64,000 nucleotides of DNA from Nemania diffusa (taxonomy: Eukaryota; Ascomycota; Sordariomycetes; Xylariales; Xylariaceae): positions 4,975,001-5,039,000 of the forward strand of contig JBBPUQ010000002.1 in NCBI GenBank assembly GCA_038501195.1. Direction: 5' to 3'. Position 1 is the first letter of the stretch. Each line of letters begins with the position of its first letter. Below, piece after piece: positions 848 through 53,436 of this stretch. Under the pieces are notes generated by a model, which saw only the letters and a program-made list of their open reading frames with translations, was not told the DNA's origin and did no database searches. A program made the translations under genes and the position numbers.

Positions 848-1084
848 TGTTGCACAAGGCTCACAAAAAAGGGAGAGCTTTAAGCAAATAAAGCTATATT
901 ATATGAAAAATCTATATATAAAAAGAAAAAAAAAAAAGTTAGAAATTTTTTTGCACAAAAATTGCTTATATATATATATATAAAGCAGTTTAAAGCAATA
1001 ATAAATAAAACTATTTATTTAATTATATAATAAAACTATTTAATTTATTTAAATAATTAAATTAATATTAATTAATTTATAATT
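848..1084 (-). repeat. LTR of element A, left (3' LTR in coding sense)
   Basis: This 237-bp LTR matches D's LTRs from its TGTTGCAC edge to its end. Its first 60 or so bases still carry CA, GG and GC dinucleotides, while the inner part is fully RIP-converted, so the RIP boundary lies inside this LTR. It contains the family's poly-A tract and a TA-repeat, which in the coding sense reads as a TATA-like box. Confidence 0.85.
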
Positions 1085-2470
1085 ATTTTTTTTTTAAAAA
1101 AATAACTTATTTACAAATTATAAAAATTAAATATATAAATTTTAATTAATTATTTTTTAATAAAAAAAAAATCGTTTTAAATATTTATTATATTATTAAT
1201 TATTAAATTTTGTTTTTTTTAAGTTATAATATAATTTTTTTATATATTAATATTATTATTTTAAATATATTTTTTATATATATATTTTTTTTTTTTATAA
1301 AATTAATAAATTATTATTTTTATAAAGTTTTTTAATTATATTATTTTAAATTATTTATAACTAACTTTTTAATTTTAATAATAGTTTTATTATATTTAAA
1401 TTATTATTATAAAACTTTTTTAATAATATAAAATTATTTTAAAAGTTTTTAATATAATATTATTTATTATTAATATTTTAGCTTTTTTAATTAATTTAAT
1501 ATTATAACTTTTAATAATATAAATATATTATATATATTTTTTTTATTTTAAATTTTTTTTTATTTTTAAATTTAAATATTTTATTTTTAAAGTTATTGTT
1601 TTTTTAATTTATTAATAAATTATTAAAATATTTTTATAAATAATTAATATAATATTAATTTATAAATTTTTAAAATAAAAAAATTTATAATATAAATATA
1701 TTATTATTTTTTTTTTAAATTTTATATATTTGTTATATTATTAAATAATTAAATTTATTTAAAAATTTATTAATTATTTAAAATTGTTATTTTTTTAATA
1801 TAAATATATAATTATTTATATTAAAATTAAAATTTTAATATTTTTTATTAATTTATATAATTATATAATATTATATATATTTTAATTTTTTTTTAATAAA
1901 ATTTATAAATTATATAATTTTTTATATTTTGTTTTAAATTTTAAGTTATAATATTTTTTTAGCTATTAATAAATTTTTCAGTTTTTTTTAAATTATATAA
2001 TTTTTTTAATTAAAATAAAATAATATTAAAAAATTTATTTTAATTTTATAAAAAAACAATTTAATAAATTTATAAAATATTAATATTTATATATAATTTA
2101 AAATTAAAATTTATTTAAATTAATTATTTTAATAATAATTAATATAAAACTAAAATTATTAATTTAAATATTTATTTATAATTTTAGTTTATTTTATAGT
2201 TTTATAATAATTTATAAATATTAAAATATATTAAACTTTTATAATTTTATATAATTTATTTATAAAAGTAAATATAAATTAAAACTTTTTATTAAAAATT
2301 AATATAATTAATATTTTAAAAATTTAAAAAAAACTTTTATAATATATTTATATAATATTTTTTATAGTTATTTATATAATATATAATATAATTTAAACTT
2401 TTTTTTTAATTAATTTATTATAATTAATATATTATTATAATTATATTTATTTTTAAATATTTATTTAAAG
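1085..2470 (-). pseudogene. Element A body, first segment (3' end of pol in coding sense)
   Basis: This segment aligns with 47197-48610 of D, the part just inside D's 3' LTR (coding minus). It corresponds to the region after RNase H, where Ty3/gypsy elements carry integrase and its C-terminal extension. No integrase motif can be read because almost all codons are A/T only and stops are dense in all frames. The segment ends at the target duplication of F (2471-2475, tttat). Confidence 0.65.
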
Positions 2471-2475
2471 TTTAT

Positions 2476-2708
2476 AGTTATAATTAATTAATATTAGTTT
2501 AATTATTTAAATAAAGTAAATAGCTTTATAATTTAGTTAAATAAATAACTTTATTTATTATTATTTTAAACTATTTTATATATATATATATAAATAATCT
2601 TTTTATAAAAAAATTTTTAACTTTTTTTTTTTTTTTATTTATAGATTTTTTATATAATATAGCTTTATTTATTTAAAACTTTGCTTTTTTTATAAGCTTT
2701 ATTTAATA
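2476..2708 (+). repeat. 5' LTR of element F
   Basis: This LTR is the reverse complement of the family 1 LTR as seen in A and D. It starts agttat, carries a TA-repeat resembling a TATA box about mid-length, then a T-tract, and ends with the RIP-converted form of GTGCAACA. It keeps more AGCT and AACT sites than F's 3' LTR at 15334-15565. Confidence 0.85.
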
Positions 2709-5379
2709 ATTTATAAATTATTTATATTTATAAAATATAAAAACTATTTTTAAATATTTTTTATAAAAAAATTAAACTATAATTAATTATTATAATAATA
2801 TTAATATTTAAAAAGTATATTATTTTTAAATAATAAATTAAAAAATAAATTAATTTAATTTTTAATAAATTATAACTATTTATAATTATAAATAATAAAT
2901 AGCTTTTTTTAATTTTTTATATAAAAACTAATATTTAAATATATTTTAAAAAATTTAATTAAAATATTTTAATTATTATAAAAGTTAAAAATAATAATAA
3001 ATTAATTATTTTAGCTTTTTTAATAAAAAACTTTTAAAATAAAAATTAAATCTTTAATAATAATAATATATTAATAATAAATTAAAAATTTATATAATTT
3101 AATTATATTATTTATTTAATATATAAAAACTTTTATTAATTAAATTAAAAAATTTAATAAAATTATAATTAATAAAAAAAAAACAATTAAATTATTTAAT
3201 AAAAAATAATAAAAAAAAATTTATTTTTAATTTTTATTTTAAATAAATTATTAATTATTTATTTTAAAAATTAAAAATAATTATTATTAAATATAATTAT
3301 ATTTAAAAATTATTAAATAAAACTAATTAATATATTATTAATTTATTTTTTTATAAAAATAATATTTTAAAATTTATTTAAATAAATAAAAAATTTTATA
3401 AATTAATTAAAATATTTATATTTATTTTTTATAATAATAAAAATAAAAATAATATTAAGTTTAAAATATAATTATATATTATAAAAAATAAATTAGTTAT
3501 TAATAAAAATTAATTTATTAATAATATTATAAAAATAATTAATATTAAAATTTATATTAATAATAAAATTATTAAATATTTATTTTTATATTTAATTAAA
3601 AGTTATTTTAATTAATTAATTATAATTAAAATATTTTTTAATTATTTAAAAAAAAACTATAAAAATATAAATATTAATAAAAAATTTAAATTAAAATAAA
3701 AATTTTTTAATTTTAATAATTATATTTTAGTTATTTTTTTTAATTTTAAAATTAATTTTATTTAATTAATTAAAAAAACTAAATTAAAAAATAAAAAATA
3801 AAAAAAATATTTTAAAAATAAATTATTTAATAAATTATTAAATATTTTTTTTATTTATTTAAATAATAATATTTTTTTTAATTAATATATTAAATTTTAT
3901 ATTTAATTAATTTATTAAATATATATAAATAATAAAAAATATAATATTAAATATAAAATTAATTAATTAATTTTTTTTAATAATATAAATAAATTTAATT
4001 AATATATTATTTATTATAATATTAATAATAAAAACAATAATATTAAAATTAATAATAAAAATATTAAAATTTTAATAATTAAAAGCTATAATATTTTAAA
4101 TAATTTTAAATTATTAAAGCTAATAAAAAAAAGCAAATATTTTAATTATTAATAAAAAAAATATATTTTAAAAAATTATTTGTTAAATAATATTAAAAAA
4201 AAAATATGTTTATAAAATATTATAGTTATATTTATTACTTTTTATAATAAAATAAAAGTTTTAAAAAATATTATAAAAAAAATTAAAAAAAATAAAACAT
4301 TAAAAAAATAACTTTAAATAAACTAAATTTTTATTTAAAAAAAATATTATAAAAAAATTATATAAATAATAAATTAAATTTAATAAATAAATATTTAAAA
4401 AAATAATTTTTATTATATATATATATTATAAATAATAATAAATTTTTATTAATTATTAAAGATTTTTTTAAAAATATAAAAATAAATATATATATAAATG
4501 TAAATATATTATTTATAAAAAAAATTATTAAAATATTAAACTTTTTTATAATTATTTAATTTTATTTTTAATTAATTTTTAAAAATAATTATAAAAAAAA
4601 ATAAAATATTAAAATTATTTTATTAATATTTTTATAAATATAAAAAAAAAAATTTAAAAATATATTTTTAATAGCAATATTTTTTTAAATATATAAAATA
4701 ATTATTAAAAAATTTTAATTAATATTTTTATTTAATTATTTTTTTAATTAATATTTTAATAAAAATTTAAATATAAATTAAATAAAAATATAATTTATAA
4801 ATTTTAAATATTAAATAAATATAAATTATAAAAATATAAAGTTTTTTTTAAAAAAAAAAATAATTATATTAATAAAAAAATATTAAAAAAAATTAAATAA
4901 TATTTTAAATTTTAATTATAAAATAATTTAATTTTATTAAAAAAATTATAATTAAAATATAATATAATTTAAATAATAGTTTAATTTTTTTTATAAAATA
5001 AAAAAAAAAAAAAATTTGAAAAAAAAAACAAAAAAATTATTTTATGTTAAAAAATTAACAATTTAAATTTTTATAAAATATAATAAAATAAATTAAAATA
5101 ATATAAAATTAAAATTTTAATAAAAATAGTTAATATTATTATAACTGTTTTTAATATAATAATTTTATATAATAATTTTATATAAAAAATATAAATTATA
5201 ATTATTTATAAAATTAATAAATTTATTAATAATAAAAAAAAAAACTTTTTTTAATAAAAAAAAAAAAAACTTTATAAAAAAACTTTATAAATAATTTTTA
5301 AAAAATATTATAATTTATTATATATATTTAATAAAATAAATTTTAATAATTTTTAATATAATTTTTTATATAAAATATT

Positions 5380-6530
5380 ATTAAATAAATTAAAAATAAT
5401 TTATAAATATTTAATTAATAATTTATATAAAAAATTTATTAAATTTAATAATATATTTTATATTTTTTTTTATATTATTTATAAAAAAATAAAAAAAAAA
5501 ATTTAAATTTTATATAAATTATTAAAAATTTAATAAATTAATAAAAAAAAATAAAAATTTTTTATTTTTAATTAAAAAAATATTATTATAATTTTTTAAA
5601 ATTAATATATTTATTAAATTAAATATAAAATAAATATTTAATTAAATATATATAAAATTTAAATAAAAAAATTTAATAACTTTTTATATTTATTATAAAT
5701 TTTTTAAATATAAAATATTTTTATTTAATTTTATTAATAATTTTATTATATTTTAAAAATATATTAATAATATATTATTTAATTATTTAAATAATTTTTA
5801 TAATATATATATAAATAATATATTTATTTATTTAATTAATTTAAAAAATTATTAAAAATATATATAAATAATATTATAATAATTATATATTATTAAATTT
5901 TAAATAAATTTAAAAAAATTTAAATTTTATATTATAAAAATTAAATTTTTAAAATATATTATTAATATAAATAATATTTAAATTAATTTAATTAAAATAA
6001 AAATAATAAAAAATTAAAAAACTTTTATAACTATAAAAAAAATATAATTTTTTTTAAAAATTTATAATTTTTATAAAAAATTTATAAAAAATTATAATTA
6101 AATTATTAATTTTATAATATAATTAATAAAAAAAAAAAATAATTTTTTTATAAATTAATAAATATAATTAAATATTTTTATAATTATAAAAAGTTTTTAT
6201 ATTTTATTTAATATTATAATATTATAAATATAATTTATTTATTAAAATTAAAATTAATATTTTTAATAATATAATTATAAAAGTTTTATTTTAAAAATAT
6301 AAAAATAATTAATATTTTATTATATATTATTTTAAAATTTTATATAATATTAAATTAAATTATAAAACTTTTAATAAAAAAATATTTATAATATTTTTAA
6401 TTTTTAAAAAATAACAATTTAAATTAATTAATAATTATATTAAATTTTTTTTAATAATAATAAATTATTAAATTTTAAAATATTTTAATTAAAAATAATA
6501 TTTAAATTTATAATAAATAAAATAAATAAA
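5380..6530 (+). pseudogene. Element F reverse transcriptase/RNase H remnant
   Basis: This stretch aligns with the minus-strand reverse-transcriptase and RNase H region of D (50390-49250) after reverse complementation. The segment around 5401-5450 corresponds to D's block that leads into the reverse transcriptase. Saturated RIP leaves only A/T-type codons and many stops. The assignment rests on alignment to D, not on motifs readable here. Confidence 0.6.
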
Positions 6531-8549
6531 ACTATTTATAAAATATAATTTTTATATTATTTATTATTTTAAAAAAAAAAATATATTAATTAATATTTTA
6601 ATAAAAAAATATAAAAATTTTATTATATATAAAAAAAAAAAAAATATATAAAAATATTAAATAATTTTTTAATTAATAAATAATATAGTTTATAATATAT
6701 TTATATAAATAACTTTTTTAAATTAAATTATTTATTATAAAAATATAAAAAAATATAAAAGTTTTATTAAATTTTTAATTAATTATAAAAATATTTAAAA
6801 AAAACAAAAAAAACTTTAATATAAAAATTTATTATAAAAAAATTTTTATTAATAAAAATAATTTATAATAATTAATTAAAAATTTAATTATTTATAATAA
6901 AAAATTTATAATTTTTAATTTTTTATATTTATATATTTAATTTATTTAAAAAATATATAATAAAATATTTATTATATATTTAAAAAAAAAAAGAAATATA
7001 TAAACTTTTTATAAAATATTATTAATAATTTAAATTTAAAAAAAATTATAATATATATATTTTTAATTATATAATATATTATTTTATAAAAATTTTATAT
7101 AATAAAATATTTAATAAATTTTTTTTTTTTTTATTTTAAATTATATTTAAAAATATTTAATTATAAATTTTAAATAAATATTTAAAAATAAATATAGTTA
7201 TAATAATATATTAATTATAATAAATTAATTAAAAAAAAATATAAATTATATTATATATTATATAAATAATTATAAAAAATGCTATATAAATCTATTATAA
7301 AAATTTTTTTAAAATTTTTAAAATATTAATTATATTAACTTTTAATAAAAAACTTTAGTTTATATTTACTTTTATAAATAAATTATATAAAATTATAAAA
7401 ATTTATTATATTTTAATATTTATAAATTATTATAAAACTATAAAATAAATTAAAATTATAAATAAATATTTAAATTAATAATTTTAATTTTATATTAATT
7501 ATTATTAAAATAATTAATTTAAATAATTTTTTATAATAAATTATATATAAATATTATTATTTTATAAATTTATAAAATTATTTTTTTATAAAATTAAAAT
7601 AAATTTTTTAATATTATTTTATTTTTATTAAAAAAATTATATAATTTAAAAAAAATTAAAAAATATATTAATAATTAAAAAAATATTATAATTTAATATT
7701 TAAAATAAAATATATAAAATTATATAATTTATAAATTTTATAAAAAAAAAGTTAAAATATATATAACATTATATAATTATATAAATTAATAAAAAATATT
7801 AAAACTTTAATTTTAATATAAATAATTATATATTTATATTAAAAAAAATAATAGTTTTAAATAATTAATAAATTTTTAAATAAACTTAATTATTTAATAA
7901 TATAATAAATATATAAAATTTTTAAAAAAAATAATAATATATTTATATTATAAGTTTTTTTTTTATAAAAAATAATTAATTAATATTATATTAATTAATT
8001 ATAAAAATATTTTAATAATTTATTAATAAATTAAAAAAGTAATAATTTTAAAAATAAAAAATTTAAATTTAAAAATAAAAAAAAATTTAAAATAAAAAAA
8101 ATATATATAATATAATTATATTATTAAAAGTTATAATATTAAATTAATTAAAAAAGCTAAAATATTAATAATAAATAATATTATATTAAAAATTTTTAAA
8201 ATAATTTTATATTATTAAAAAGATTTTACAATAATAATTTAAATATAATTAAATTTTTATTAAAATTAAATAATTAATTATAAATAATTTAAAATAATAT
8301 TATTAAAAAATTTTATAAAAATAATAATTTATTAATTTTATATAAAAAAAAAATATATATATATAAAAAATATATTTAAAATATAATATTAAAAAAAAAC
8401 AATAATATTAATATATAAAAAAACTATATTATAACTTAAAAAAAAAAAGTTTAATAATTAATAATATAATAAATATTTAAAGCAATTTTTTTTTATTTAA
8501 AAGTAATGAATTAAAATTTATATATTTAATTTTTATAATTTATAAATAA

Positions 8550-8795
8550 TATTATATATTAATATTTATAAAAAACAAAGCTATTAATTAAATAATTTAA
8601 TTATATATAAAAATTTAAATATAAAAAAAAAAAAAACAAAAAATTTAATTAATATAAAATAATAAAAATAAATAATATATAAATTATTTAAAATAATAAA
8701 TTTTAATAATAAATAAGTTTTATAAAAAAAGTGAAAAAATTATAATATATAATTAAAATAATTATATAATTTATATTAGTTATTATATTATAATT
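8550..8795 (-). repeat. LTR of element C, left (3' LTR)
   Basis: This family 2 LTR has its leading TGTT converted to TATT. Almost every AGC and AAC retained in the partner LTR at 15057-15305 is converted to A/T here, so the pair differs by transitions. Confidence 0.85.
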
Positions 8796-11700
8796 ATTTT
8801 TTTTTAAAAAAAAAAAAAAAAATTTTATATAAATAATAATTAAATTAAATATTTTTTAATAAAAAAAAAATTTATTTTAAATATTTATTTATAAGTTTTA
8901 TTTTAAATTTTTTATTTTTTATATTATTTTATAAATTTTTTTATATTTAATTATTAAATAATAATTTATTAAAATTTATTTTATATATATTAAATTTTAT
9001 ATGTTTTTTTTTTATATAATTATTTAATATTTTTTTTAATAATTTTATTATTATTAAAATATAGTTTTATAAATTTATTTTTTATTTTTATTTTTAGTTA
9101 TTTTTTTAAATATATTAAAAATTTTATTATATTTAAATAGTTTTAATAAAATTAATATAAAAATAATATATTATTTTTAAAATTTTTAATTAAATATTAT
9201 TTATTATTAATATTTTAATTTTATTATATAATTTAATATTAAAGTTTTTTATAATATAATTATAAAATTTAAATTTTTTTAATAATAAACTTTTTTTTTT
9301 TTTTAATTTAATTAATTTTTTAATAAAATTTTTTTATTTTTGTTTAAATAAAAAATTATTAAAATATTTTTATAGTTTATTTATATAATATTTATTAATT
9401 ACTTTTTAAAAATTTAAAATTTTTAATATTTATATATTTTTTTTATATATTAAAATTTTAAAAAATTATTAAATTATTAAAAGATTTAATTTATTAAAAA
9501 GTTTATTTATAATTTATAATTATTGTTTTTTTAAAATAAATATATAATTATTTATATTAAAATTATTTTTTTTTTTTTTTATTTATTTAATAAATTATTT
9601 TTTTTTAAATTTTTTATATATTTATTTTTATAATTATAATATAATTTGCTATAATTTAAACTTTTTTTTGTTTTTATTTTTAAATATATTATTTATATAT
9701 AATTATTTTTTTTAATTTTTTAATAATAATTTAATAATTTTAATTAAAATAAAAAAATATAAAAAAATTTATTTTTATTTTATAAAAAAATAACTTTATT
9801 AATTTATATAATATAAATATTTAAATATAATTTATAATAAAAATTTAATTTAATTAATTATTTTAAAAATAATTTATATAAAATTATAACTTTTAATTTA
9901 AATATTTATTTATAATTTTTATTTAATTTATTATTTTATAATAATTTAATAATATAAAAATATAAATAACTTTTATTAATTTATTTACTTTATTTATAAA
10001 AGTTAAAATAAATTAAAATTTTTTATTAAAAATTAAAGTTTTAAATATATTAAATATTTAAAAAAAACTTTTATAATATATTTTTATAATATTTTTTATT
10101 ATTATTTTTATTATATAAAATATTGTTTATATTTTTTTATTTAATTAATTTATTATAATTAATATATTATTATATTTTTTATAATTTTTTAATATTTATT
10201 TAAAATTTATAATTAAATATTTTTATATTTAATTTAATATTAATAATAGTTATAATTTTTTTAAAATTTTATTTTTTAAAACTTTAATAAATTAATATTT
10301 TAAATAATTTAATATATAAATTTAATAATTTTTAAATAGTTTAAACTATTAATATTATTTATATATTAATTGTTTTATTTTTTTTATATTTAAATAAATT
10401 ATAACTATATAGTTATAAATTTTAAAAATTAATTAAATATATAAATTTATATAATTAAATATAATTAGTTTTATTTAATAAAATATAAGTTTTTTTTTTA
10501 AAGTTTATAAATTATTTAATTTTTTATTTTTTGTTTTTTAATAATATATTTTTATAGCAAAATTAATATAGTTTTATTTAAAAATATAATTAATAAATTA
10601 ATAATTTATTAATTATTTCAAATTTTTTTTTAAATTGTTTTAAATAATAATAATAATAATAATTATATTATTTATTATTTATTTTAAATATTTTTTATTA
10701 AAAAATATAAATATAATTAAATATTATTATATATATTTTTTATTTTTTTAAATAATTAAATTTTTTTATTTATAAAATAAAACATTTATAATAATGTTTT
10801 TTTTTTTAAATAATAAATAATTATAAAATTATATTTTAAAAAAAATATTATTTAATTAATTTATTTTAAATTAAAATATTATTTTTAATTAAAATATTTT
10901 AATATTTTATAATTTATAATAATAAAAAACAGTTTTTTTTATTAATTATTTATTAGTTTTAGTTTTTATTTTTTTAATATTAATATTATTATTAATAATT
11001 TTTTATTATAAATATTATAATTTAATTTTATATTATATAAAATTTTAAAATAATAAATTATTAAATATTATTTTTTTTTATAAAACTAAAATATTATTTT
11101 TATAATTATTTTATTAAAAATATTAATTTTTATTTTAATAAATAAATTATAATTATAATAACTTAAAATAAAAAATATAATTAAGTTTTTTTTTAAAAAT
11201 TTAAAAGTTTTTTTATATTAAAAAGTTTATATAAAAACAACTTTTTTTTTTATTAATTAATTTAATAATTTAGCTATTTTATTATAATTTTTTATAAATT
11301 TTTAATAAAAGTTATAAAAATTTAAAAAAAATTATATATTTTTAATAATAATAAAAAATTTTTATTTATATATTATTTTAACTTTATTAAAATTTATTTA
11401 TATTTTATTTATATTAATAATATAATTTAAAAATTTAATTTCGATTATATAAAATTTTAATTTTTTTAAATTAGTTTATAAATTAATATTTTTTAATTAT
11501 TATAATATTTTTTTTATATATTTTTTATATTTAATTAAATTATTAAAATAAATAAAAATATTATTTATATAAATATTATAAAAATTATTTAAATAATTAA
11601 ACAAAATATTATTTATATATTTTTAAAATATAAAAAATTTATTAATAAATTTAAAAAATAATATTTTATATTAATAAATTTTATAATAAATATAAAAAAT

Positions 11701-14700: not shown

Positions 14701-15056
14701 TTTATATTATTTATAAAATTTATTAATTATTTTATTAAAAACTTTATATAAATTTTTTTTTTTATTATTTTTTACAATATAAATATAAGTTTTTATATTT
14801 TAAAAATTAAAGTTAATTAATAAATTATATTAAACTTTGTTTTAAAAAGTTTTATTAAGTTTAAAAAACAATTTTTTTAAGTTATTTAGTTCAAAATAAA
14901 CTTTTTTACAAATTTAAAACTTGTTATTTATATTTTTTATTATAATATTATTATATTAATATTTATTTTATAAATTTATAATTTTTTGTTTTTTTTTTTT
15001 AAAATAAAAATATATTTAAAAGCAATTTTTATGTTTTATATAAATAATATTTAAAT

Positions 15057-15305
15057 TGTTATATATTAATATTTATAAAAAACAAAGCTATTAATTAAAT
15101 AACTTAATTATATATAAAAATTTAAGTATAAAAAAAAAAAAAAAAAAAAAAAATTTAGCTAATATAAAATAATAAAAATAAATAGTATATAAGCTGCTTA
15201 AAGTAGTAAACTTTAGTAATAAATAAATTTTGTAAAAAAAACGAAAAAATTGCAATATATAGCTAAAGTAACTATATAGCTTATACTAGCTACTATACTA
15301 TAACT
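15057..15305 (-). repeat. LTR of element C, right (5' LTR)
   Basis: This family 2 LTR starts tgttat and ends ctataact. Several AGCT and ACT sites survive, for instance around 15190-15305, which are lost in the left copy. It abuts the right target duplication aataa. Confidence 0.87.
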
Positions 15306-15333
15306 AATAAATTATTTTTTAAAAAAAAAAAAT

Positions 15334-15565
15334 AATTATAATTAATTAATATTATTTTAATTATTTAAATAAATTAAATAATTTTATTATTTAATTAAAT
15401 AAATAATTTTATTTATTATTATTTTAAATTGTTTTATATATATATATAAATAATTTTTTTATAAAAAAATTTTTAATTTTTTTTTTTTTTTTTATTTATA
15501 AATTTTTTATAAAATATAGCTTTATTTATTTAAAACTTTGTTTTTTTTATAAATTTTATATAATA
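15334..15565 (+). repeat. 3' LTR of element F
   Basis: This is the same LTR as 2476-2708, in the same orientation. It lies 24 bases after C's right target duplication and is preceded by a poly-A run fitting a polypurine tract. It is more heavily RIP-converted than its partner. Confidence 0.85.
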
Positions 15566-16195: not shown

Positions 16196-16506
16196 TATTA
16201 AATTAATAATTTAATAAAGCTTATATATATATATATTTAAATATATATAATGAAAATTTAAACTAAAACTTTTATTAAATAATTAAATAAATAAAAAATA
16301 TATAAATTTATTAAAATTTATAAAACTTATAAGTTTTATATATATATATATATAAATAACTTATATATAATATTTTTAATTATAGTTTATTTTATAAAAT
16401 ATATATATAAATTAATATAAAACTTTAAAACTTAAAAATAAACTTTAAATTTTATAAATTATTTCAAATTTTTATATATATATATATATAAAAAGTTTTA
16501 TTAATA
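16196..16506 (+). repeat. 5' LTR of element H
   Basis: This 311-bp LTR contains TA-repeats at about 16333-16355 and 16477-16490, the first possibly a TATA-like box. It is the reverse complement of the LTRs of I and about 97 bp longer than H's right LTR. Confidence 0.82.
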
Positions 16507-25240: not shown

Positions 25241-25491
25241 TTTATAAAATATAACTTTTATATTATTTATTATTTTAAAAAAAAAAACATATTAATTAAT
25301 ATTTTAATAAAAAAATATAAAAATTTTATTATATAAAAAAATAAAAAAAAAATATAAAAATATTTAATAATTTTTTAATTATTAAATAATATAGTTTATA
25401 ATATATTTATATAAATAATATTTTAAATTAAATTATTTATTATAAAATTATAAAAAAATATAAAAATTTTATTAAATTTTTAATTAATTAT

Positions 25492-25750
25492 TGTTATATG
25501 TTAATATTTGTAAAAAACAGAGCTATTGATTAAATAACTTAATTATATATAAAAATTTAAGTATAAAAAAAAAAAAAAAAAACAAAAAATCTAGCTAATA
25601 TAAAATAATAGAAATAAATAGTATATAAGCTGTTTAAAACAATAAGCTTTAGCAATAAATAAATTTTGTAAAAAAAAAAAAAAAAAAAAAAAAATTGCAA
25701 TATATAGCTAAAATAACTATATAGCTTATACTAGCTATTATATTATAACT
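25492..25750 (-). repeat. LTR of element B, left (3' LTR)
   Basis: This family 2 LTR starts TGTTATATG and ends ATAACT. Compared with the right LTR it is strongly RIP-converted; for example a GAAGAAGAAG-type stretch in the right copy is a pure A run here. Confidence 0.9.
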
Positions 25751-28479: not shown

Positions 28480-28990
28480 TTTTTATATTTAATTAAGTTG
28501 TTAAAATAAATAAAAATGTTATTTATATAAATATTGTAAAAATTATTTAAATAATTAAACAAAATATTGTTTATATATTTTTAAAATATAAAAAATCTAT
28601 TAATAAGCTTAAAAAGTAATATTTTATACTAATAAACTTTATAACAAATATAAAAAATAGTTAAGTTTTTTTTATTTAGATTTATATAAATTTAGTAAAA
28701 TATTTATTTTATATTGATTTTTGTAAAAATTTTTGTTTTAAAAATTTAAAATAATATTTTTTTAATTAATAGTAATAAATAGCGATTTTTTTTTATAAAA
28801 GTATTAAACTTTTAATAATTAATATAAAATTGCAATTTATTATATAGTTTATTTATAAATAAAACAAAAAATATAAACAAAGTATTGTTTAATTTAATAA
28901 ATTTTTTTTATAAATTGTTTATTAAATATTTTTTTATAACTTTTAATTTATTTATAAATATTTTATATAAAAACAAGTATTTTAAGTTTT
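28480..28990 (-). pseudogene. Element B Ty3/gypsy reverse transcriptase remnant
   Basis: On the minus strand, one main frame read through TAA stops gives the ordered blocks of a Ty3/gypsy reverse transcriptase. A K-Y-L...N-L...F-I block comes first, then I-N-Y-x-K-F-N followed by K-K-N-R-Y (family: DYRxLNxxTxKNRYPLP), a F-K-L block (family: PFGLTNAP) with K-Y-I-N-N-I-L after it, and Y-I-N-N-I-F-I-Y (family: YLDDILIYS) near 28535-28505. Both catalytic aspartates of YxDD are asparagine, as expected from TpG-to-TpA changes in the coding strand. Many glutamine and tryptophan positions are stops. The enzyme would copy the element's RNA into DNA; here it is dead. Confidence 0.82.
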
Positions 28991-29948
28991 TTAGTTTTTT
29001 GTTGTTTATAAATTTAATATAATAATTTATTTATAAATAATATAAAAATAAAATATTAAAATCTACTTTATTAAACATTTAAAATAAGTTATAATATTTA
29101 TTAAAAATAACTTTAAAAGTTTTTTATTATAGCTTGTTGTTTTTTTTTATAAAAAGATTTTTAACTTTTTTATTAGCAATAATTTTATTAATTTTATAAA
29201 TATTAATAATACAAATATTTTTAACTAGTTTGTTTTATTTTATTAAAAATTAAAAAGCTATAATATTTATATTAATTATATTAATATTTAATTATTTTTT
29301 ATATTATTTAATTTTATTTTTTTATATATAATATAAGCTTTAAATATTAGCTTTTTATTTTTTTAATATATTAAAGTTAGCTTTTTTAATTAATATATAC
29401 TGTTGTTTTTTTTTTTTTTAATAAGTTTTTTTTTATATAAAAAATAGCTCTTTTTTAAAAATACAGTTTATTTTTTTTAAACTTTTTTTTTTAAAATTTT
29501 TTCGTTTTAGTATTTATATAAAAGCTTTAAGCTTTATATTGTTAGTTTTAGCTGTTTTTTTTTAAAACTTGCATTTTTTTTCGTTTTTTTTTAAGTTTAT
29601 ATTTTTTTATACTATATTTTAATTATAACTAAAATGTTGTAACTATATATTAGCTTAATTTATATTAATAGTATATTTTATGTTATAGTTAGTAAATAAA
29701 ATAAACAAAAATAAAAGTTAATTTTTTTAACAATTAAAAAAAATATTATATTTTTAAAATTATAACTTTTTTAAAATAAAGTTGTTTTATATATTAATAA
29801 TATATAAAAATATTTTCTAAAATATATGTTTTTTTATTTTTATAATAACTTTAAAAGTTTAATTAATTTTTTGTTTATTTTGTTTGTTATATTTTATTAT
29901 ATTTTAAAGTATAAATTAAATTAAAAATAAGTTTAAATATTTTATAAT

Positions 29949-30143
29949 TTATTTAATAAAAGTAATATTTATATATATATATATACTTGCTTTTATATTT
30001 TTAAAAATATTTTTAATAATTAATAATAGTTTATTATAACTTATAATATAAATATATAAAAAAAACTTTTTTTTTAAATATTTATTTATAGTGTTTAGTT
30101 TATTAATAAGTTTTAAAAATATTTTCTTTAAAAAAAAAATCAT
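29949..30143 (-). pseudogene. Pol/protease-region remnant of element B
   Basis: A 64-codon open stretch on the minus strand lies about 1 kb upstream of B's reverse transcriptase in coding sense. It is clearly homologous to the stretch at 51317-51529 in D: both share I-N-K-Y-L-K-K, a following L-Y-I block, and F-K-N-I plus S-I-Y-I blocks in order. Position suggests the linker or protease part of gag-pol, but I see no aspartic protease D-S/T-G triad. Confidence 0.55.
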
Positions 30144-32018
30144 TTTTTTTAAAGTTAATTTTTTATTTATATAATGTTTTATTTAAACAAATTATTTTTT
30201 TTAGTTTTTTATTTGCTTAAGTTATTAAAAAAACATTGATTTATAATAATGTTGAAATAAACTTTTTTATTAACGCTGTTTTTTTTTTTAAAATATTTAC
30301 AAAATTAATATTTAGTTTATTTATAATTAAAACATTTTCTTTTTATTAATAGCATATATATTTTTTTTTTTTTTTATATTTATATTTAAAATATAAACTG
30401 TTTATTTAAATAGTTATTATTATAAAGTTTTTTATTTATGTTTATAGTCGAAGTTTTATTTTAAAATATAGCTATTACTTTTTTATTTTTATATAAAATA
30501 TTGCACTTTTTGTTTTTTATATTAAAAATATATACAATTTATATATAGTATTAAATATAAAATTTAAATATTTTATTTAATTTTAAATATTTAAATGTAG
30601 TATTAGCAATTATATAAATATTAAAGCAGTTTTTAAAACTGTTTTTTTATTAATTTTTTATTAGTTTAGTTTTATTTATAAAACAAACAAAATTATTTTT
30701 AAATTTAACAAATTTATTAAAAAAGTATTTAATAGAACTATTTTTTATATATAAAGTTTTAAATTTTATTTTAAATTTATTAAAAACATTAACATTATAA
30801 TAATATTTATATAAATATATAAATAATATATATAATAAAGTTAAAACTTTAAAATATATATTATTTAAATAAAATTATAAATATTTAGCTATTTTTTTAT
30901 TTAAATAAAACTTAATATTTGTTATTTTAGTAATATTATTAGCAAATTAATTTTTATTAATTATTAAACAATTTTTTATATTGTAATATTATATTTTGAA
31001 TTTTATGTTATTTTTATCGGAGTTATTATAAAAAGTAGAAACTAAAATTTTAACTAATTTGCAAGTTTTTTTTTCAGTTTAATTTAACAATATATTAATT
31101 TTACAACTTTTAGTTAATAAATTTATTACTTATTAATTAGTTTTATTAACTTAGTTTTAAAACTAAAATTTTTTTAATTTTAAATTTACTAACTTAATAA
31201 AAAAATAATTTAATATAGTTTAATTATTAAATATAAAACAGTTAAAATTTACAATTAATACTTTTATTTTTAATTAGTTAATAGCTATTAAAACTTATTT
31301 TTTATTAATAAAAAAGTTATATTATTTAATTAAATTGTTAAATTAATTTTTACTTTTTTATAAAAGTTTATAAAAATTATTTATTTGCTAATATATAACA
31401 AAAAGTATAAATAAACAAAATTTAAATTTAGTTTATAAAACTTTAAACTTTTTAAATAATTATTTAAAGTTAATATAATTTATTAATTTGTTAAAATAAA
31501 AAATAGCTATTTAAGCTTTATTAATAATATTATAGTAAAAAAATATAAAGTTATTATTTTTTATATATATATTAGCAAAACTAGCAACTAATTTTTGTTA
31601 ATTTTTTTTAAATTTATTTATAAAATTTATATATTGTTTATTTATAAAATTAAGTTTTTTATATTATTTATAAAATTTATTAATTGCTTTATTAAAAACT
31701 TTATACAAGTTTTTTTTTTTATTATTTTTTGCAATATAAATTTAAGTTTTTATACTTTAAAAATTAAAGTTAATTAATAAATTATAGTAAGTTTTGCTTT
31801 AAAAAATTTTATTAAATTTAAAAAATAACTTTTTTAAGTTATTTAGTTTAAAGTAAACTTTTTTATAAGTTTATAGCTTATTATTTATATTTTTTACTAT
31901 AGTATTGTTGTATTAATGTTTTATTTTATAAGTTTATAGCTTTTTGTTTTTTTTTTTTTTTTAAAGTAAAAATATATTTAAAAGCAGTCTTTATACTTTA
32001 TATAAATAATATTTAAAT

Positions 32019-32277
32019 TGTTATATGTTAATATTCGTAAAAAATAAAGCTACTAATTAAATAACTCAATTGTATATAAAAATCTAAATATAAAAAAGAA
32101 AAAAAAAAACAAAAAATCTAGCTAATACAGAGTAATAGAAATAAGTAGTGTATAAGCTGCTTAAAGCAGTAAGCTTTAGCAGTAAGTAGGTTTTATAGAA
32201 GAAGAAGAAAAAGCGAGAAAATTGCAGTATGTGGCTAAAGTAACTGCACAGCTTGCACCAGCCACTATACCGTAACT
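32019..32277 (-). repeat. LTR of element B, right (5' LTR)
   Basis: This 259-bp LTR keeps CA, GC and CC dinucleotides densely over 32190-32277, unlike any other LTR of this family here. It is thus the best guide to the family 2 ancestral LTR sequence. It is followed by the target duplication attat. Confidence 0.9.
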
Positions 32278-34070
32278 ATTATAAAAATATTTAAAAAAAA
32301 ACAAAAAAAATTTTAATATAAAAATTTATTGTAAAAAAACTTTTATTAATAAAAATAACTTATAGTAATTAATTAATAATTTAATTATTTATAATAAAAA
32401 ATTTGTAATTTTTAACTTTTTATATTTATATATTTAATTTATTTAAAAAATATATAATAAAATATTTACTATATATTTAAAAAAAAAAAAAAACATATAA
32501 ATTTTTTATATAATATTATTAATAATTTAAATTTAGAAAATATTATAATATATATATTTTTAATTATATAAAATGTTATTTTATAAAAGTTTTATATAAT
32601 AAAATATTTAATAAGTTTATTTTTTATTTTATTTTAAATTATATTTAAAAATATTTAATTATAAATTTTAAATAAATATTTAAAAATAAATATAGTTATA
32701 ATAATATATTAATTATAATAAATTAATTAAAAAAAATTATATAAATTATATTATATATTTTATAAACAATTATAAAAAATGCTATATAAATATATTACAA
32801 AAGTTTTTTTAAAGTTTTTAAAATATTAATTATAATAACTTTTAATAAAAAACTTTAGTTTATATTTGTTTTTATAAATAAACTATATAAAATTATAAAA
32901 ATTTAATATATTTTAATATTTATAAATTATTATAAAATTATAAAACAAACTAAAATTATAAATAAATATTTAAATTAATAGTTTTAATTTTAAATTAACT
33001 ATTACTAAAATGATTAATTTAAGCAAATTTTTATAATAAATTATATATAAATATTATTATTTTATAAATTTATAAACTTATTTTTTTATAAAGTTAAAAT
33101 AAATTTTTTAATATTATTTTATTTTAACTAAAAGAATTATATAGTTTAAAAAAAACTGAAAAATTTACTAATAGCTAAAAAAATATTATAATTTAATATT
33201 TAAAATAAAATATAAAAAATTATATAGTTTGTAAATTTTGCAAAAAAAAAACTAAAATATATATAATATTATATAATTATATAAACTAATAAAAAGCATT
33301 AAAATTTCAATTTTGATATAAATAACTATATATTTATATTAAAAAAACAACAGTTTTAAATAACTAATAAACTTTTAAACAAATTTAATTATTTAATAAT
33401 ATAATAAATATATAAAATTTTAAAAAAAAATAACGATATATTTATATTATAAGCTTTTTTTTTATAAAAAGTAATTAATTAATATTATATTAATTAATTA
33501 TAAAAATATTTCAACAATTTGTTAATAAATTAAAAAAGCAATAATTTTAAAAATAAAATATTTAAACTTAAAAATAAAAAAAAATTTAAAGTAAAAAAAA
33601 TATATATAATATAATTATATTATTAAAAACTATAATATTAAATTAATTAAAAAAATTAAAATATTAATAATAAATAATATTATATTAAAAATTTTTAAAA
33701 TAGTTTTATATTATTAAAAAAATTTTATAATAACAATTTAAATATAACTAGATTTTTATTAAAATTAAATAATTAATTATAAACAGTTTAAAATAATATT
33801 ATTAAAGAATTTTATAAAAACAATAATTTGTTAACTTTATAAAAAAAAAACAAAGTATATAAAAAATATATTTAAAATATAATATTAAAAAAAACAGCAA
33901 TATTAATATATAAAAAAGCTATATTATAATTTAAAAAAAAAAAAGTTTAGTAATTAATAATATAGTAAATATTTAAAGTAATTTTTTTTTTCGCTAAAAA
34001 GTAGTTAATTAAAGCTTGTATATTTAATTTTTATAATTTATAAACAAGTTATTTTTTTTAAAAAAAAAAT

Positions 34071-34306
34071 AATTATAGTTAATTAATATTAGTTTAATTA
34101 TTTAAATAAATTAAATAGTTTTATTGTTTAATTAAATAAATAATTTTATTTACTGCTATTTTAAACTGTTTTATATATATATATATAAACAATTTTTTTA
34201 CAAAAAAATTTTTAATTTTTTTTTTTTTTTTTTTATTTGTAAATTTTTTATATAATATAGTTTTATTTATTTAAAGCTTTGCTTTTTTTATAAACTTTAT
34301 ATAACA
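34071..34306 (+). repeat. 3' LTR of element G
   Basis: Same LTR and orientation as 20837-21072, preceded by an A-run resembling a polypurine tract and followed by the target duplication ttaag. Confidence 0.85.
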
Positions 34307-34643
34307 TTAAGCTATTACTTTATATAAAATTAAAAATAAAATTAACATTTAAATATTTTATTAAATTTAATAAAAATAAAATTTAAATAAATAAATAAAA
34401 TAATTATATATTATTAACTTTTATATAAAAAATTATTTTTAATAATATATTATTTAATAAATTTAAAAAATATATATTATATTTATATATTAATTAAAAA
34501 TATTATATAATTTATTAATTATTATATAAATTTAAAAACTATTAAAAAATAATATTAAAATATTAAATATATAAATATAATAATAAATTAATAATATATA
34601 ATAAAAACTATATTATATATTTTTAAATTTTAATTATATAAAA

Positions 34644-35102
34644 ATTTTTATTTTTATTAATAAAATATTTATAAATAATAAAAATTTTAATTTTTAAATT
34701 AAATTTATAATTATATTAGTTAATAAAAACTATATAAAAAACATTTTTAAAATTAAAAATAATATTATTTATTAAATTTTAATTAAATATAAATCAATTA
34801 TATATAATATATTAATAAATAAATTATATAATATAATTAATAAATTTAATTATATTATTTTATTTAATATAATTTTTTAAAAAATTATTTATATAATAAA
34901 ATTATTAATTATATTATTAATTATATATATTAATTTTAAATTTTTATATAAATTTTTAATTAAATTAAAAATTATATAAAAAAAACAATATGAAATTAAT
35001 ATTATATTTTTTTAAAAAATATATAAAAATTATAAAATTATAAAAATATATTAAATTAATAATAAAAATAATTTAATAAATATTTATATAAAAAAAATAT
35101 TT
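34644..35102 (+). pseudogene. Ty1/copia RNase H domain remnant of element H
   Basis: One frame, read through about seven stops, follows the C-terminal RNase H of fungal Ty1/copia polyproteins over some 150 codons. It starts with an F-I-N...F-I-N-N-K block (family: FxDASFANNKD). Next come a G-N-I-I-x-x-S-S-x-K-C-K-R-V-T-R-type block seen as N-N-I-I-Y...K-Y-K-S, then N-I-L-I-N-K-L-Y-N (family: SxLASELYAM) and Y-I-N-F-K-F-L-Y-K-F-L-I-K-L (family: xxTDSxSLYExLxKL). It closes with an E-I-N-I block ahead of the terminal W-I-N-x-x-x-N-P-A-D region. The family's catalytic TDS aspartate is asparagine here. This fixes the superfamily and coding strand of family 3. RNase H would remove the RNA strand during reverse transcription. 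Confidence 0.8.
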
Positions 35103-35247
35103 AATTAAATATTAAAAAAACTAGTTAATATAAATAAATTAATTATATAAATAAAAATATATATAAATTAATTAAATAATAAAAAAAATAATAAAAAATT
35201 AATTAATATTAAAATTAAAATTATTATATAAAAAAAAAATTTTTTAA

Positions 35248-35461
35248 TATTAAATTAATAATTTAATAAAATTTATAAAATTTATAAATTTTATATATAT
35301 ATATATATAAATAATTTATATATAATATTTTTAATTATATATTTTTTTATAAAATATATATATAAATTAATATAAAATGTTAAAATTTAAAAATAAATTT
35401 TAAATTTTATAAATTATTTTAAATTTTTATATATATATATATATAAAAAATTTTATTAATA
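35248..35461 (+). repeat. 3' LTR of element H, internally deleted
   Basis: This copy is 214 bp against 311 bp for the left LTR. Both ends match, but about 97 bp are missing soon after the first 25 bases, between two similar taataaaattta-like stretches, which suggests slippage or microhomology deletion. Confidence 0.8.
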
Positions 35462-38400
35462 TAAATAGTTTTATTTATTTTATTTATTATAAATTTAAAT
35501 ATTATTTTTAATTAAAATATTTTAAAATTTAATAATTAATTATTATTAAAAATAATTTAATATAATTATTAATTAATATAAATTTTTATTTTTTAAAAAT
35601 TAAAAATATTATAAATATTTTTTTATTAAAAATTTTATAATTTAATTTAATATTATATAATATTTTAAAATAATATATAATTAAATATTAATTATTTTTA
35701 TATTTTTAAAATAAAATATTTATAATTATATTATTAAAAATATTAATTTTAATTTTAATAAATAAATTATATTTATAATATTATAATATTAAATAAAATA
35801 TTAAAGTTTTTTTTAATTATAAAAATATTTAATTATATTTATTAATTTATAAAAAAAGTATTTTTTTTTTATTAATTATATTATAAATTTAATAATTTAA
35901 TTATAATTTTTTATAAATTTTTTATAAAAATTATAAAATTTTAAAAAAAATTATATATTTTTTATAATTATAAAAAATTTTTAATTTTTTATTATTTTTA
36001 TTTTAATTAAATTAATTTAAATATTATTTATATTAATAATATATTTTAAAAATTTAATTTTTATAATATAAAATATAAATTTTTTTAAATTTATTTAAAA
36101 TTTAATAATATATAATTACTATAATATTAATTATATATATTTTTAATAATTTTTTAAATTAATTAAATAAATAAAAATATTATTTATATATATATTATAA
36201 AAATTATTTAAATAATTAAATAATATATTATTAATATATTTTTAAAATATAATAAAATTATTAATTAAATTAAATAAAAATATTTTATATTTAAAAAATT
36301 TATAATATATATAAAAAATTATTAAACTTTTTTTATTTAAATTTTATATATATTTAATTAAATATTTATTTTATATTTAATTTAATAAATATATTAATTT
36401 TAAAAAATTATAATAATATTTTTTTAATTAAAAATAAAAAATATTAATTTTTTTTTATTAATTTATTAAATTTTTAATAGTTTATATAAAATTTTAATTT
36501 TTTTTTTAATTTTTTTATAAATAATATTAATAAAATATAAAATATATTATTAAATTTAATAAATTTTTTTTATAAATTATTAATTAAATATTTATAAATT
36601 ATTTTTAATTTATTTAATAATATTTTATATAAAAAATTATAATAAAAATTATTAAAAGTTTTATTTTTAAAAAATTTTAATTTATAATTTATTTTAAATT
36701 AATAAAATAAAAAAATATTAAAGTTTATTTTATTAAATATATATAATAAATTATAATATTTTTTAAAAATTATTTATAAAATTTTTATATAAAAGTTTTT
36801 TTTTTATTATTAAAAAAAACTTTTTTTTTATTTTTAATAAATTTATTAATTTTATAAATAATAATAATTTATATTTTTTATATAAAATTATTATATAAAA
36901 TTAATATATTAAAAATAGTTATAATAATATTAATTAATTTTATTAAAAATTTAATTTTATATTATTTTAATTTATTGTTTTATATTTTATAAAAAATTAA
37001 ATTATTAATTTTTTATTATAAAATAATTTTTTTATTTTTTTTTAAGTTTTTTTTTTTTTTAATTTTATAAAAAAAATTAAATTATTATTTAAATTATATT
37101 ATATTTTAATAATATTTTTTTTAATAAAATTAAATTATTTCATAATTAAAATTTAAAATATTATTTAATTTTTTTTAATATTTTTTTATTAATATAATTA
37201 TTATTTTTTTTTTTAAAAAATTTTATATTTTAATAATTAATATTTAATTAATATTTAAAATTTATAAATTATATTTTTATTTAATTTATATTTAAATTTT
37301 AATTAAAATATTAATTAAAAAAATAATTAAATAAAAATATTAATTTATATTTTTAATAATTATTTTATAAATTTAAAAAAATATTATTATTAAAAATATA
37401 TTTTTAAAACTTTTTTTTTATATTTATATAAATATTAATAAAATAATTTTAATATTTTTTTTTATTTTTATTATTATATTTAAAAATTAATTAAAAATAA
37501 AATTAAACAATTATAAAAAAATTTAATATTTTTATAATTTTTTTTATAAATAATATATTTATATTTATATATATATTTATTTATATATTTTTAAAAAAAA
37601 TTTTAATAGTTAATAAAAATTTATTATTATTTATAATATATATATATAATAAAAATTATTTTTTTAAATATTTATTTATTAAATTTAATTTATTAATTAT
37701 ATAATTTTTTTATAATATTTTTTTTAAATAAAAATTTAATTTATTTAAAACTATTTTTTTAATATTTTAATTTTTTTAATTTTTTTTATAATAATATTTT
37801 ATAAATATATATTTTTTTTTAATATTATTTAATAAATAATCTTTTAAAATATATTTTTTTTATTAATAATTAAAATATTTTTTTTTTTTTATTAATTTTA
37901 ATAATTTAAAATTATTTAAAATATTATAACTTTAAATTATTAAAGTTTTAATATTATTATTATTAATTTTAATATTATTATTTTTATTATTAATAATATT
38001 TTTTAAAATATTATTAATATTATTATATATAATTTATTAAATAAATTTATTTATATTATTAAAAAAAATTAATTACTTAATTTTATATTTAATATTATAT
38101 TTTTTTTTATTTATATATATTTAATAATTTAATAAAATATAAAATTTAATATATTAATTAAAAAAAATATTATTATTTAAATAAATAAAAAAAATATTTA
38201 ATAATTTATTAAATAATTTATTTTTAAAATATTTTTTTTATTTTCTTTTTTAATTTAATTTTTTTAATTAATTAAACAAAATTAATTTTAAAATTAAAAA
38301 AAATAACTAAAATATAATTATTAAAATTAAACAATTTTTATTTTAATTTAAATTTTTTAATAATATTTATATTTTTATAGCTTTTTTTTAAATAATTAAA

Positions 38401-39517
38401 AAATATTTTAATAATAATTAATTAATTAAAATAATTTTTAATTAAATATAAAAATAAATATTTAATAATTTTATTATTAATATAAGTTTTAATATTAATT
38501 ATTTTTATAATATTATTAATAAATTAATTTTTATTAATAATTAATTAATTTTTTATAATATATAATTATATTTTAAATTTAATATTATTTTTATTTTTAT
38601 TATTATAAAAAATAAATATAAATATTTTAATTAATTTATAAAGTTTTTTATTTATTTAAATAAATTTTAAAATATTATTTTTATAAAAAAATAAATTAAT
38701 AATATATTAATTAATTTTATTTAATAATTTTTAAATATAATTATATTTAATAATAATTATTTTTAATTTTTAAAATAAATAATTAATAATTTATTTAAAA
38801 TAAAAATTAAAAATAAATTTTTTTTTATTATTTTTTATTAAATAATTTAAATTTTTTGTTTTATTAATTATAATTTTATTAAACTTTTTAATTTAATTAA
38901 TAAAAGTTTTTATATATTAAATAAATAATATAATTAAATTATATAAATTTTTAATTTAATATTAATATATTATTATTATTAAAAATTTAATTTTTATTTT
39001 TTAAAATAAAATATTAAAATATTTTAATTAATTAATTTATTAAATTTAAACTAAATTATTTTTTTTAATAAAATAATAAAAAAAAAAAAATTTTATTAAA
39101 CTTATATAATTTAATAATATATTTTTTTAATAAATAATTAATTTTTTAAAAAAAGTTTTTTTAATTTAAAATATAATATTTATATATAAAAAAAAAGTTT
39201 TATATTTAATTTTAAAAACTTTTTATTAAAAAAACTAAAATAATTAACTTATTATTATTTTTAACTTTTATAATAATTAAAATATATTTAAATATTAATT
39301 TTTATATAAAAAATTAAAAAAAACTATTTATTATTAATAATTATAAATAATTATAATTTATTAAAAATTAAATTAATTTATTTTTTAATTTATTATTTCA
39401 AAATAATATATTTTTTAAATATTAATATTATTATAATAATTAATTATAATTTAGTTTTTTTATAAAAAATATTTAAAAATAATTTTTATATTTTATAAAT
39501 ATAAATAATTTATAAAT
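35462..39517 (-). pseudogene. Element A body, last segment (gag and pol in coding sense)
   Basis: This resumes A after the H target duplication and is collinear with D from about 49240 to 53436. By alignment it contains the reverse transcriptase/RNase H counterpart (about 36620-35480, minus strand) and, to the right, the gag-side region up to A's 5' LTR. RIP is saturated: long runs have no G or C. No motif can be read directly. Confidence 0.65.
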
Positions 39518-39755
39518 TATTATATAAAATTTATAAAAAAAACAAAGCTTTAAATAAATAAAACTATATTATATAAAAAATCTATAAAAAAAAAAAATAA
39601 AAAAAACAGTTAAAGATTTTTTTATAAAAAAATTACTTATATATATATATATAAAATAATTTAAAGCAATAATAAATAAAACTATTTATTTAATTATATA
39701 ATAAAATTATTTAATTTATTTAAATAATTAAGTTAATATTAATTAATTTATAATT
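39518..39755 (-). repeat. LTR of element A, right (5' LTR)
   Basis: This LTR aligns base for base with D's LTRs apart from transitions; the leading TGTTGCACG is converted to TATTATATA. It is followed by the target duplication ataat (39756-39760). Confidence 0.87.
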
Positions 39756-53400: not shown

Positions 53401-53436
53401 TTCTTATGCTTTGTAATTTATAAGTGATCTGTAAAT

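Follow-up and report, generated by a model that had tools for sequence, protein, structure and literature searches.

RIP is a premeiotic, homology-triggered process. In most fungi, Neurospora among them, CpA has been named as the preferred site, with preferences for CpT or CpG elsewhere (PMC6180176). Retrotransposons that are both nested and mutated by RIP are already known as a kind: in Mycosphaerella graminicola (Zymoseptoria tritici), 78 nested clusters of 7.5-63 kb were reported, one of them (47 kb) was figured, and GC content falls across a nested cluster (PMC4522978). RIP is said in that report to spoil LTR dating, and the word 'transversion' is absent from the part of it that was available (PMC4522978). 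Eight of the fungi in Table 2 of another survey have large RIP-affected regions, whose mean GC content was given as 14.9-33.0% (PMC7882544).

The locus analyzed here lies in a 64,000-nucleotide stretch of the Nemania diffusa genome (the window). A first-pass annotation had described positions 848 to 39,755 as a nest of six LTR elements, and this was borne out by self-BLAST, LTR pairs and the joining of flanks. Self-BLAST and LTR alignment showed that A encloses F and H, that C lies in F and G in H, and that B lies in G. The annotated coordinates were right to within a few bases, with the end of F corrected to 15565, and the net lengths agreed, as claimed, with those of the uninterrupted copies D and I (Table 1). 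The proposed order of insertion (A, then F and H, then C and G, then B) stands as a nested order; because C and G/B sit in separate branches, nesting leaves C unordered against G and against B. A tRNA scan of the window found none.

Table 1. Elements and other features of the window (positions are those of the window; length is net of insertions where own pieces are given)
Feature	Coordinates	Own pieces	Strand	Length (bp)	GC (%)	Target duplication	Remarks
A (family 1)	848..39755	848-2475, 15571-16195, 35462-39755	-	6547	2.09	ACAAT/ATAAT	outermost; strand by alignment to D
F (family 1)	2476..15565	2476-8549, 15306-15565	+	6334	1.89	TTTAT/TTTAT	in A, opposite orientation to A
C (family 2)	8550..15305		-	6756	3.15	AATAA/AATAA	in F; strand inferred
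H (family 3)	16196..35461	16196-20836, 34307-35461	.	5796	2.23	TAAAT/TAAAT	in A; 3' LTR shortened
G (family 1)	20837..34306	20837-25491, 32278-34306	+	6684	4.61	TCAAA/TTAAG	in H; two transitions in duplication
B (family 2)	25492..32277		-	6786	9.12	ATTAT/ATTAT	innermost, in G; strand inferred
I (family 3)	40674..46567		.	5894	2.80	ATAGC/ATAGT	uninterrupted sister of H, opposite orientation
D (family 1)	46960..53673		-	6714	20.5	ATTAA/ATTAA	uninterrupted relative of A, F and G
RVT_1 (PF00078) in D	49817..50281		-				profile match, E 1.5e-10; frame broken by 3 stop codons
Family-2 fragment	56020..59827		-		~1.3		ends approximate; strand inferred; a different repeat starts at ~59827

The self-alignment that had been suggested as a check was run as a self-BLAST of the window with 28-base words, only matches of at least 90 bits being tabulated, and the expected blocks were found. 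Positions 848-2476 paired with 46960-48608 of D, 16194-20836 paired in reverse with 41949-46569 of I, and 20863-25491 and 32278-34310 both paired in reverse with D, while C and B (8552-15329 and 25494-32301) were 90.8% identical over 6.8 kb. No chance self-match in reversed, complemented and three Markov-shuffled windows exceeded 79.5 bits, whereas matches in the real window reached 9385 bits. Paired LTRs, as previously described, were present in all eight elements (A, F, H, C, G, B, D and I). The ends of the LTR-LTR alignments were sharp with the exception of H, which was ragged on the 5' side; at its shortened 3' LTR, BLAST joined 34389-35277 and 35256-35461 to I and skipped part of the LTR of I.

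The grouping of elements into three families also held, although two of these, A/F/G/D and B/C, are related to each other (about 80% alike across some 3.2 kb in self-BLAST); the third is H/I. Families 1 and 2 are predicted to be of the Ty3/gypsy type, by the RVT_1 match in D and by RVT_1 matches (E 1.0e-6 and 2.0e-5) in a pair of family-2 copies elsewhere in the genome (C1:2638438+ and C4:4716190+), where the domain lies on the minus strand about 2.89 kb from the start of the copy, close to the 2.86 kb of D. A, F and G were placed in family 1 by their alignment to D. The two families resemble Ty3/gypsy elements (Metaviridae) in their LTRs of about 230-270 bp, their 5-bp duplications and the RVT_1 of D; unlike them, the RVT_1 frame of D is interrupted by stops, and the other window elements (A, B, C, F, G, H and I) had no reverse-transcriptase match among the matches listed. 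In H and I neither RVT_1 nor RVT_2 was among the matches listed, and since at 2-3% GC loss of signal is indistinguishable from absence of a domain, family 3, without a recognised domain, is called LTR-type only. The families are multicopy in the genome (40 family-1 candidates scored of 281, and 41 family-3 places).

Five-base-pair target duplications had been given for each element. Five of the eight were exact and the other three differed by transitions only (one in A, one in I and two in G), but each duplication alone is weaker evidence than had been assumed, because in AT-only DNA any one pair of 5-bp sequences matches with a chance of 2.0%, which rises to 12.5% when 1 bp of slack is allowed at both ends. 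The probability of at least five exact duplications among eight was 1.2e-3 with this slack and 1.9e-7 without it, the former being the fairer figure because the LTR ends and the duplications were both known when the right-hand boundaries of F, C, B and D were set. A reading in which the family-1 termini lie a base later and the duplication is 4 bp long is also conceivable; G favours 5 bp instead. The continuity of the interrupted hosts was examined by joining only the 90-bp flanks of each insertion, in eight comparisons spanning all five interruptions. As the annotation had claimed, all five closed in register against another copy, and its excision check, run in this form, restored register in H-G against I and in the comparisons against D. 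Seven of the eight joined comparisons had no gap within 10 columns of the junction, and F-C against D had one gap column there. Identity was 162-176 of 180-182 columns for A-F against G, A-H against F, H-G against I, G-B against F and F-C against G, and 130/181, 145/179 and 137/185 in the comparisons against D.

The most telling feature of the stack, absent from the first-pass annotation, is a GC content of a few percent; the lowest 1-kb window had 0.5%. GC content climbed with nesting depth, from 2.1% in A, 1.9% in F and 2.2% in H to 3.2% in C, 4.6% in G and 9.1% in B. The older element was lower in GC in eight of nine nested relations, the exception being A and F; as 50 of 720 permutations reach this, the ordering of just these six elements by GC is weak evidence by itself. 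RIP cannot make transversions, which therefore form a clock immune to it. Transversions between the paired LTRs numbered 5/222 in A, 5/231 in F, 2/200 in H, 1/246 in C, 0/236 in G, 1/259 in B, 0/237 in D and 8/288 in I, or 12/653 in layers 1-2 (A, F and H) against 2/741 in layers 3-4 (C, G and B) (Fisher p = 0.005). The LTR transversion clock agrees with the nesting order, likewise ordering eight of the nine nested relations (50/720 permutations).

The loss of GC was strongly directional. From D to A there were 578 GC-losing transitions against 19 GC-gaining ones, with 96% of C and 97% of G lost, and 1272 of 3294 columns (38.6%) in an alignment of 22 copies had G or C in one copy or more. Directional change of C to T (and G to A) is what is expected of RIP. 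The sequence context departs from classic RIP, in that a 5' pyrimidine outweighs a 3' A. Retention of C was 0.12 after a pyrimidine and 0.33-0.39 after a purine, and ranged from 0.21 to 0.35 by 3' base; mean retention in 15 copies was 0.28 at CpA, 0.35 at CpT and 0.21 at Cp(G/A-variable). Loss was greater at CpA than at CpT beyond 5000 of 5000 shuffles, and yet the strong CpA preference associated with RIP was not seen in the 15 copies, where the 5' effect exceeded the 3' effect. In family 2 the 5' effect was small (0.47 vs 0.55; three copies, 15 TpC sites). Because CpA is not strongly preferred, we label the process RIP-like, most likely RIP.

The genome also holds candidate genes for such a process. 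One open reading frame, whose first match was a Hypoxylon argillaceum protein at 97% identity, had two entries named 'RIP defective' among the 120 matches listed, and a second was 39% identical to the first; going by the names of homologues, both loci are predicted to be RID-like. The matches of the first, a single methyltransferase gene, also point to a xylarialean ascomycete as the source of the genome. A further open reading frame combines BAH and DNA_methylase domains, and we take it to be DIM-2-like.

The locus is very probably a nest of insertions with RIP as the main cause of its GC loss. An AT-rich block received LTR retrotransposons repeatedly, each landing in what was left of its predecessors, and the copies then underwent C-to-T change on both strands. 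We infer that RIP, rather than another C-to-T process, was responsible; its enzyme would most likely be a RID-like methyltransferase, with DIM-2 possibly contributing. RIP would have been fast at first, as copies with zero LTR transversions are already at 4.6-20.5% GC, and then slow down to about 2% GC. Because a fast start would be followed by a slow, continuing loss, nesting depth would read as age and residual GC as a rough clock.

RIP might account for the first step only, to about 5-20% GC, the slow fall to about 2% being ordinary decay by deamination of DIM-2-methylated cytosines or by AT-biased mutation in heterochromatin during vegetative growth. This reading of the last step is compatible with nesting and RIP as the main cause, and we consider it unlikely, if with an appreciable chance of being right. 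A slow, clock-like second phase would give what is seen, a GC content of 4.6-20.5% before any LTR transversion and the lowest GC with more transversions, and Dim2-dependent mitotic C-to-T mutation has been reported in Zymoseptoria (PMC8016269). However, over 98% of C-to-T changes in Zymoseptoria strain Zt10 were at CpA (PMC8016269), whereas CpT, CpG and CpA have all been lost here, and elements of 20% and of 2% GC share one direction of context bias. In vegetatively growing Neurospora, A:T to G:C changes were commoner than C:G to T:A (PMC10234303), which would not reach 2% GC.

The gradient might otherwise follow position or family, inner elements having begun richer in GC or been spared. B/C, H and A/F/G do belong to different families, between which raw GC is not strictly comparable, but within family 1 GC went in step with transversions (A 2.1%, F 1.9%, G 4.6% and D 20.5%), and within family 2 C (3.2%) was lower than B (9.1%). 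The same relation was found in dispersed copies. Twenty family-1 genome copies were taken by similarity to D, of which L028 and L034 were left out of the clock as no second LTR was found, and in the other 18 GC followed LTR transversions (rho -0.65, p 0.004). In three internal tiles, private transversions numbered 31/3218 in A, 24/3225 in F, 9/3262 in G and 2/3294 in D, and their correlation with GC was -0.77 (rho) over 22 copies and -0.70 over the 18 genome copies alone; these counts may include branches that precede insertion, since likeness to D was the basis on which the 20 copies were picked, and A, F and G show transversion differences of 4-5% from D. There are exceptions to the clock: genome copy L031 had 28 private transversions and yet 6.3% GC, and G had no LTR transversion at 4.6% GC. 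Overall, an effect of position or family is very improbable. That the stack is in part an assembly artefact is the least probable reading, since, although multicopy families are the usual setting for collapse and misjoining of similar repeats, register is restored at all five interruptions, which carry target duplications, the two LTRs of each element match, the separate transversion clock follows the inferred order, and the assembly comprises 16 contigs for 55.6 Mb.

With thresholds of product >1.1, substrate <0.75 and composite >0 (PMC6714961), 52 of 125 1-kb windows passed all three RIP indices and the composite was >0 in all 125; 52 of the 67 windows at or above 3% GC passed, against none of the 58 below 3%. 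The stack forms a natural time series, in which relative age along each branch is fixed by insertion order without any clock, and it suggests that the C-to-T process is quick early, continues to about 2% GC and then falls below detection by index thresholds. Purine/pyrimidine differences alone offer a dating method untouched by RIP. More tentatively, and with the balance somewhat against it, RIP here may be a near-complete variant independent of CpA, in which C after pyrimidines is removed first and then almost all C. If so, saturated copies would stay alike and might go on triggering each other. With nesting and transversions as its calibration, residual GC would then be a usable clock of transposon age in genomes with RIP, in which LTR dating is spoiled otherwise, and the most heavily mutated DNA would be missed by standard index thresholds.

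Blocks of about 2% GC attributed to RIP, or a 5'-pyrimidine rule, were not found in the available parts of the open-access ascomycete RIP literature (including PMC7296669, PMC4858203 and PMC10787394). The process resembles RIP of Neurospora crassa in that repeats change directionally from C to T, on both strands, and in the predicted RID-like genes of the genome; unlike the CpA preference of the Neurospora type (PMC6180176), retention of C is set more by the 5' than by the 3' base. The locus shares with the large RIP-affected regions of Ascomycota (PMC7882544) long GC-poor stretches of repeats and a genome that has homologues of RID and DIM-2, but windows here below 3% GC fail the index test of that survey's tool. 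A close likeness is to the clusters of Mycosphaerella graminicola (PMC4522978), an ascomycete with RIP-like mutation in which LTR elements likewise lie inside LTR elements and have 5-bp duplications, although the RIP-affected regions of Zymoseptoria tritici have a mean of 15.2% GC (PMC7882544), much more than the 2% found in the outer elements of this nest. What is less usual at this locus is the depth of decay and a pattern of C loss in which a 5' pyrimidine counts for more than a 3' A.

The repeat relations behind the nest of LTR retrotransposons, as proposed in the first-pass annotation, were reproduced by self-BLAST of the window, and reversed, complemented, and shuffled controls gave self-matches of at most 79.5 bits. 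The LTR alignments had sharp ends. Target duplications were present in all eight elements, five of them exact and three (A, G, and I) with transitions only, which are the expected product of C-to-T mutation in one copy. A chance 5-base match is expected in 2% of pairs in such GC-poor DNA, or in 12.5% with 1 bp of slack at both ends. Because chance matches are common, weight was placed on all elements jointly and on an empty-site test, in which 90-bp flanks were joined and one duplication was removed. The interrupted hosts were restored in register in all five cases (A interrupted by F and by H, H by G, G by B, and F by C). The observation of the nest therefore holds. The insertion order had also been described as fixed; nesting does show that A preceded F and H, that F preceded C, and that H preceded G, which in turn preceded B, but it leaves F and H, C and G, and C and B unordered relative to each other.

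Elements and other features, in window coordinates unless a contig is named (G000, the N. diffusa genome)
Feature	Position	Strand	GC (%)	LTR transversions	Remarks
A	848-39755		2.09	5/222	family 1, layers 1-2
F	2476-15565		1.89	5/231	family 1, layers 1-2, within A
H	16196-35461		2.23	2/200	family 3, layers 1-2, within A
C	8550-15305		3.15	1/246	family 2, layers 3-4, within F
G	20837-34306		4.61	0/236	family 1, layers 3-4, within H
B	25492-32277		9.12	1/259	family 2, layers 3-4, within G
D	46960-53673			0/237	family 1, uninterrupted
I	40674-46567			8/288	family 3, uninterrupted
RVT_1 in D	49817-50281	minus			E 1.5e-10; three stops break the frame
Family-2 fragment	56.0-59.8 kb		1.3		third family-2 member in the window, with B and C
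Different repeat	59828-64000		10.4		starts abruptly at end of family-2 fragment; runs past window
Open frame, 3' end	1-432		normal		stops only ~415 bp before left edge of A
L002, second RID-like methyltransferase ORF	G000:C6:3190244-3191125				39% identical to the first (L003)

All three families are multicopy. The genome held at least 40 candidate copies of family 1 (D and G included; 40 scored of 281 candidates), at least 12 of family 2 (B included; 12 scored of 2505), and at least 41 places with family 3 at 95-100% identity over 1.1 kb (H and I included; 40 scored of 5078). Among the family 1 elements A, F, G, and D, a Ty3/gypsy-like reverse transcriptase was detected in D only. Family 2 was about 80% like family 1 over about 3.2 kb. 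RVT_1 was also present in two genome copies of family 2, at nearly the same offset as in D. Family 3 (H and I) had LTRs and duplications, and the matches listed for it included neither RVT_1 nor RVT_2; it represents a large burst in which no domain was recognised. Family 3 copies were 95-100% identical over 1.1 kb, yet had only 2-3% GC in the window. Several reverse-transcriptase matches with in-frame TGA lay on contigs C12 and C13, which we would guess to be mitochondrial contigs carrying group II intron proteins.

The window (G000:C2:4975001-5039000, in a genome of 55.6 Mb and 16 contigs) had 1-4% GC across most of its length past about position 848, with GC-richer stretches at about 26-34, 46-54, and 60-64 kb. 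Changes from D to A comprised 578 GC-losing and 19 GC-gaining transitions, and both strands were alike. G or C was left in at least one of 22 copies at 1272 of 3294 aligned columns (38.6%), which shows that family 1 was formerly far GC-richer. RIP, the C-to-T mutation of repeats, would be the obvious cause of the GC poverty. Loci matching the DNA-methylase profile included two RID-like loci, one with BAH and DNA_methylase, presumably DIM-2-like, and a fourth at C5:3725599. A 763-aa cytosine methyltransferase-like frame best matched a Hypoxylon argillaceum protein (97% identical), followed by Nemania (79% and 75%) and Xylaria (73%) proteins; this single gene points to a xylarialean ascomycete. 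A separate ORF just upstream of L002 resembled, by eye, the N-terminal part of L002.

RIP makes transitions only, and purine/pyrimidine differences are therefore unaffected by it. LTR transversions numbered 12/653 in layers 1-2 and 2/741 in layers 3-4 (p = 0.005). Residual GC was lower in the older element in eight of nine nested relations, and LTR transversions followed nesting in likewise eight of nine; each result was equalled by 50 of 720 permutations, and these six elements by themselves are thus no proof of a GC-age order. Twenty further family-1 copies were fetched, 18 of which had two LTRs. In these, GC was correlated with LTR transversions (rho -0.65, p 0.004), and any LTR transversion was found in 4/6 copies under 6.5% GC and 0/12 over 9%, with cut-offs chosen post hoc. 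Private (copy-specific) transversions, counted in three internal tiles with about 3200-3300 sites per element, numbered 31 in A, 24 in F, 9 in G, and 2 in D. A and F did not differ significantly (p 0.35), but A and F together differed from G (p 0.0005), and G from D (p 0.04). Private transversions were also correlated with GC (rho -0.77 in 22 copies; -0.70 in the 18 genome copies alone). Two copies were exceptions: L031 (G000:C9:3519110-3529100), whose 28/3262 private transversions at 6.3% GC suggest that it is older than its GC implies, and L037, a divergent copy with 297.

The repeat at the right end of the window had at least 29 other strong genome matches (E 8e-135 or better; 40 scored of 1370 candidates) and is probably one more nested insertion, GC-richer than its host as before. 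At the left end, the open frame resembled by eye what we take to be a fungal FAD-dependent monooxygenase.

By the usual RIP index thresholds, taken from PMC6714961, 52 of 67 1-kb windows at GC of 3% or more scored as affected and 0 of 58 below 3%. The latter, saturated windows miss the product-index threshold because TpA/ApT returns to about 1.05 after C is gone. The composite index was positive in 125/125 windows. The most heavily mutated DNA would thus score as non-RIP-affected unless the composite index were used alone.

The context of C loss was analyzed in 15 close copies by scoring mean retention at sites where C survived in at least one copy. Retention was 12% when the preceding base was T or a variable pyrimidine and 33-39% when it was A or a variable purine. 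The 3' base had a smaller effect (A 28%, T 35%, G/A-variable 21%, C/T-variable 29%). The ApC-TpC and CpT-CpA differences each lay beyond 5000/5000 shuffles. The ApC/TpC bias of residual C (2.9-12.3) exceeded the CpT/CpA bias (1.3-4.0) in 8/8 elements, counted with slightly provisional element ends. The family-2 test had the same direction but was weak (three copies, 15 TpC sites). CpA is the usual RIP site, with CpT-led families reported in Colletotrichum truncatum (PMC6180176), and over 98% of mitotic Dim2-dependent changes in Zymoseptoria are at CpA (PMC8016269). Since loss here is led by the 5' base, the loss context of N. diffusa may differ, judging mainly from one family in one genome.

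Taken by itself, the nest belongs to a known kind and is an ordinary case of it. M. graminicola, a RIP-affected ascomycete, for example, has 78 nested LTR clusters with 5-bp duplications (PMC4522978). Large RIP-affected regions have a mean GC of 14.9-33.0% in one published table (PMC7882544). What is unusual in the nest is how deep the decay has gone, that an age gradient is legible in one stack, and the loss context.
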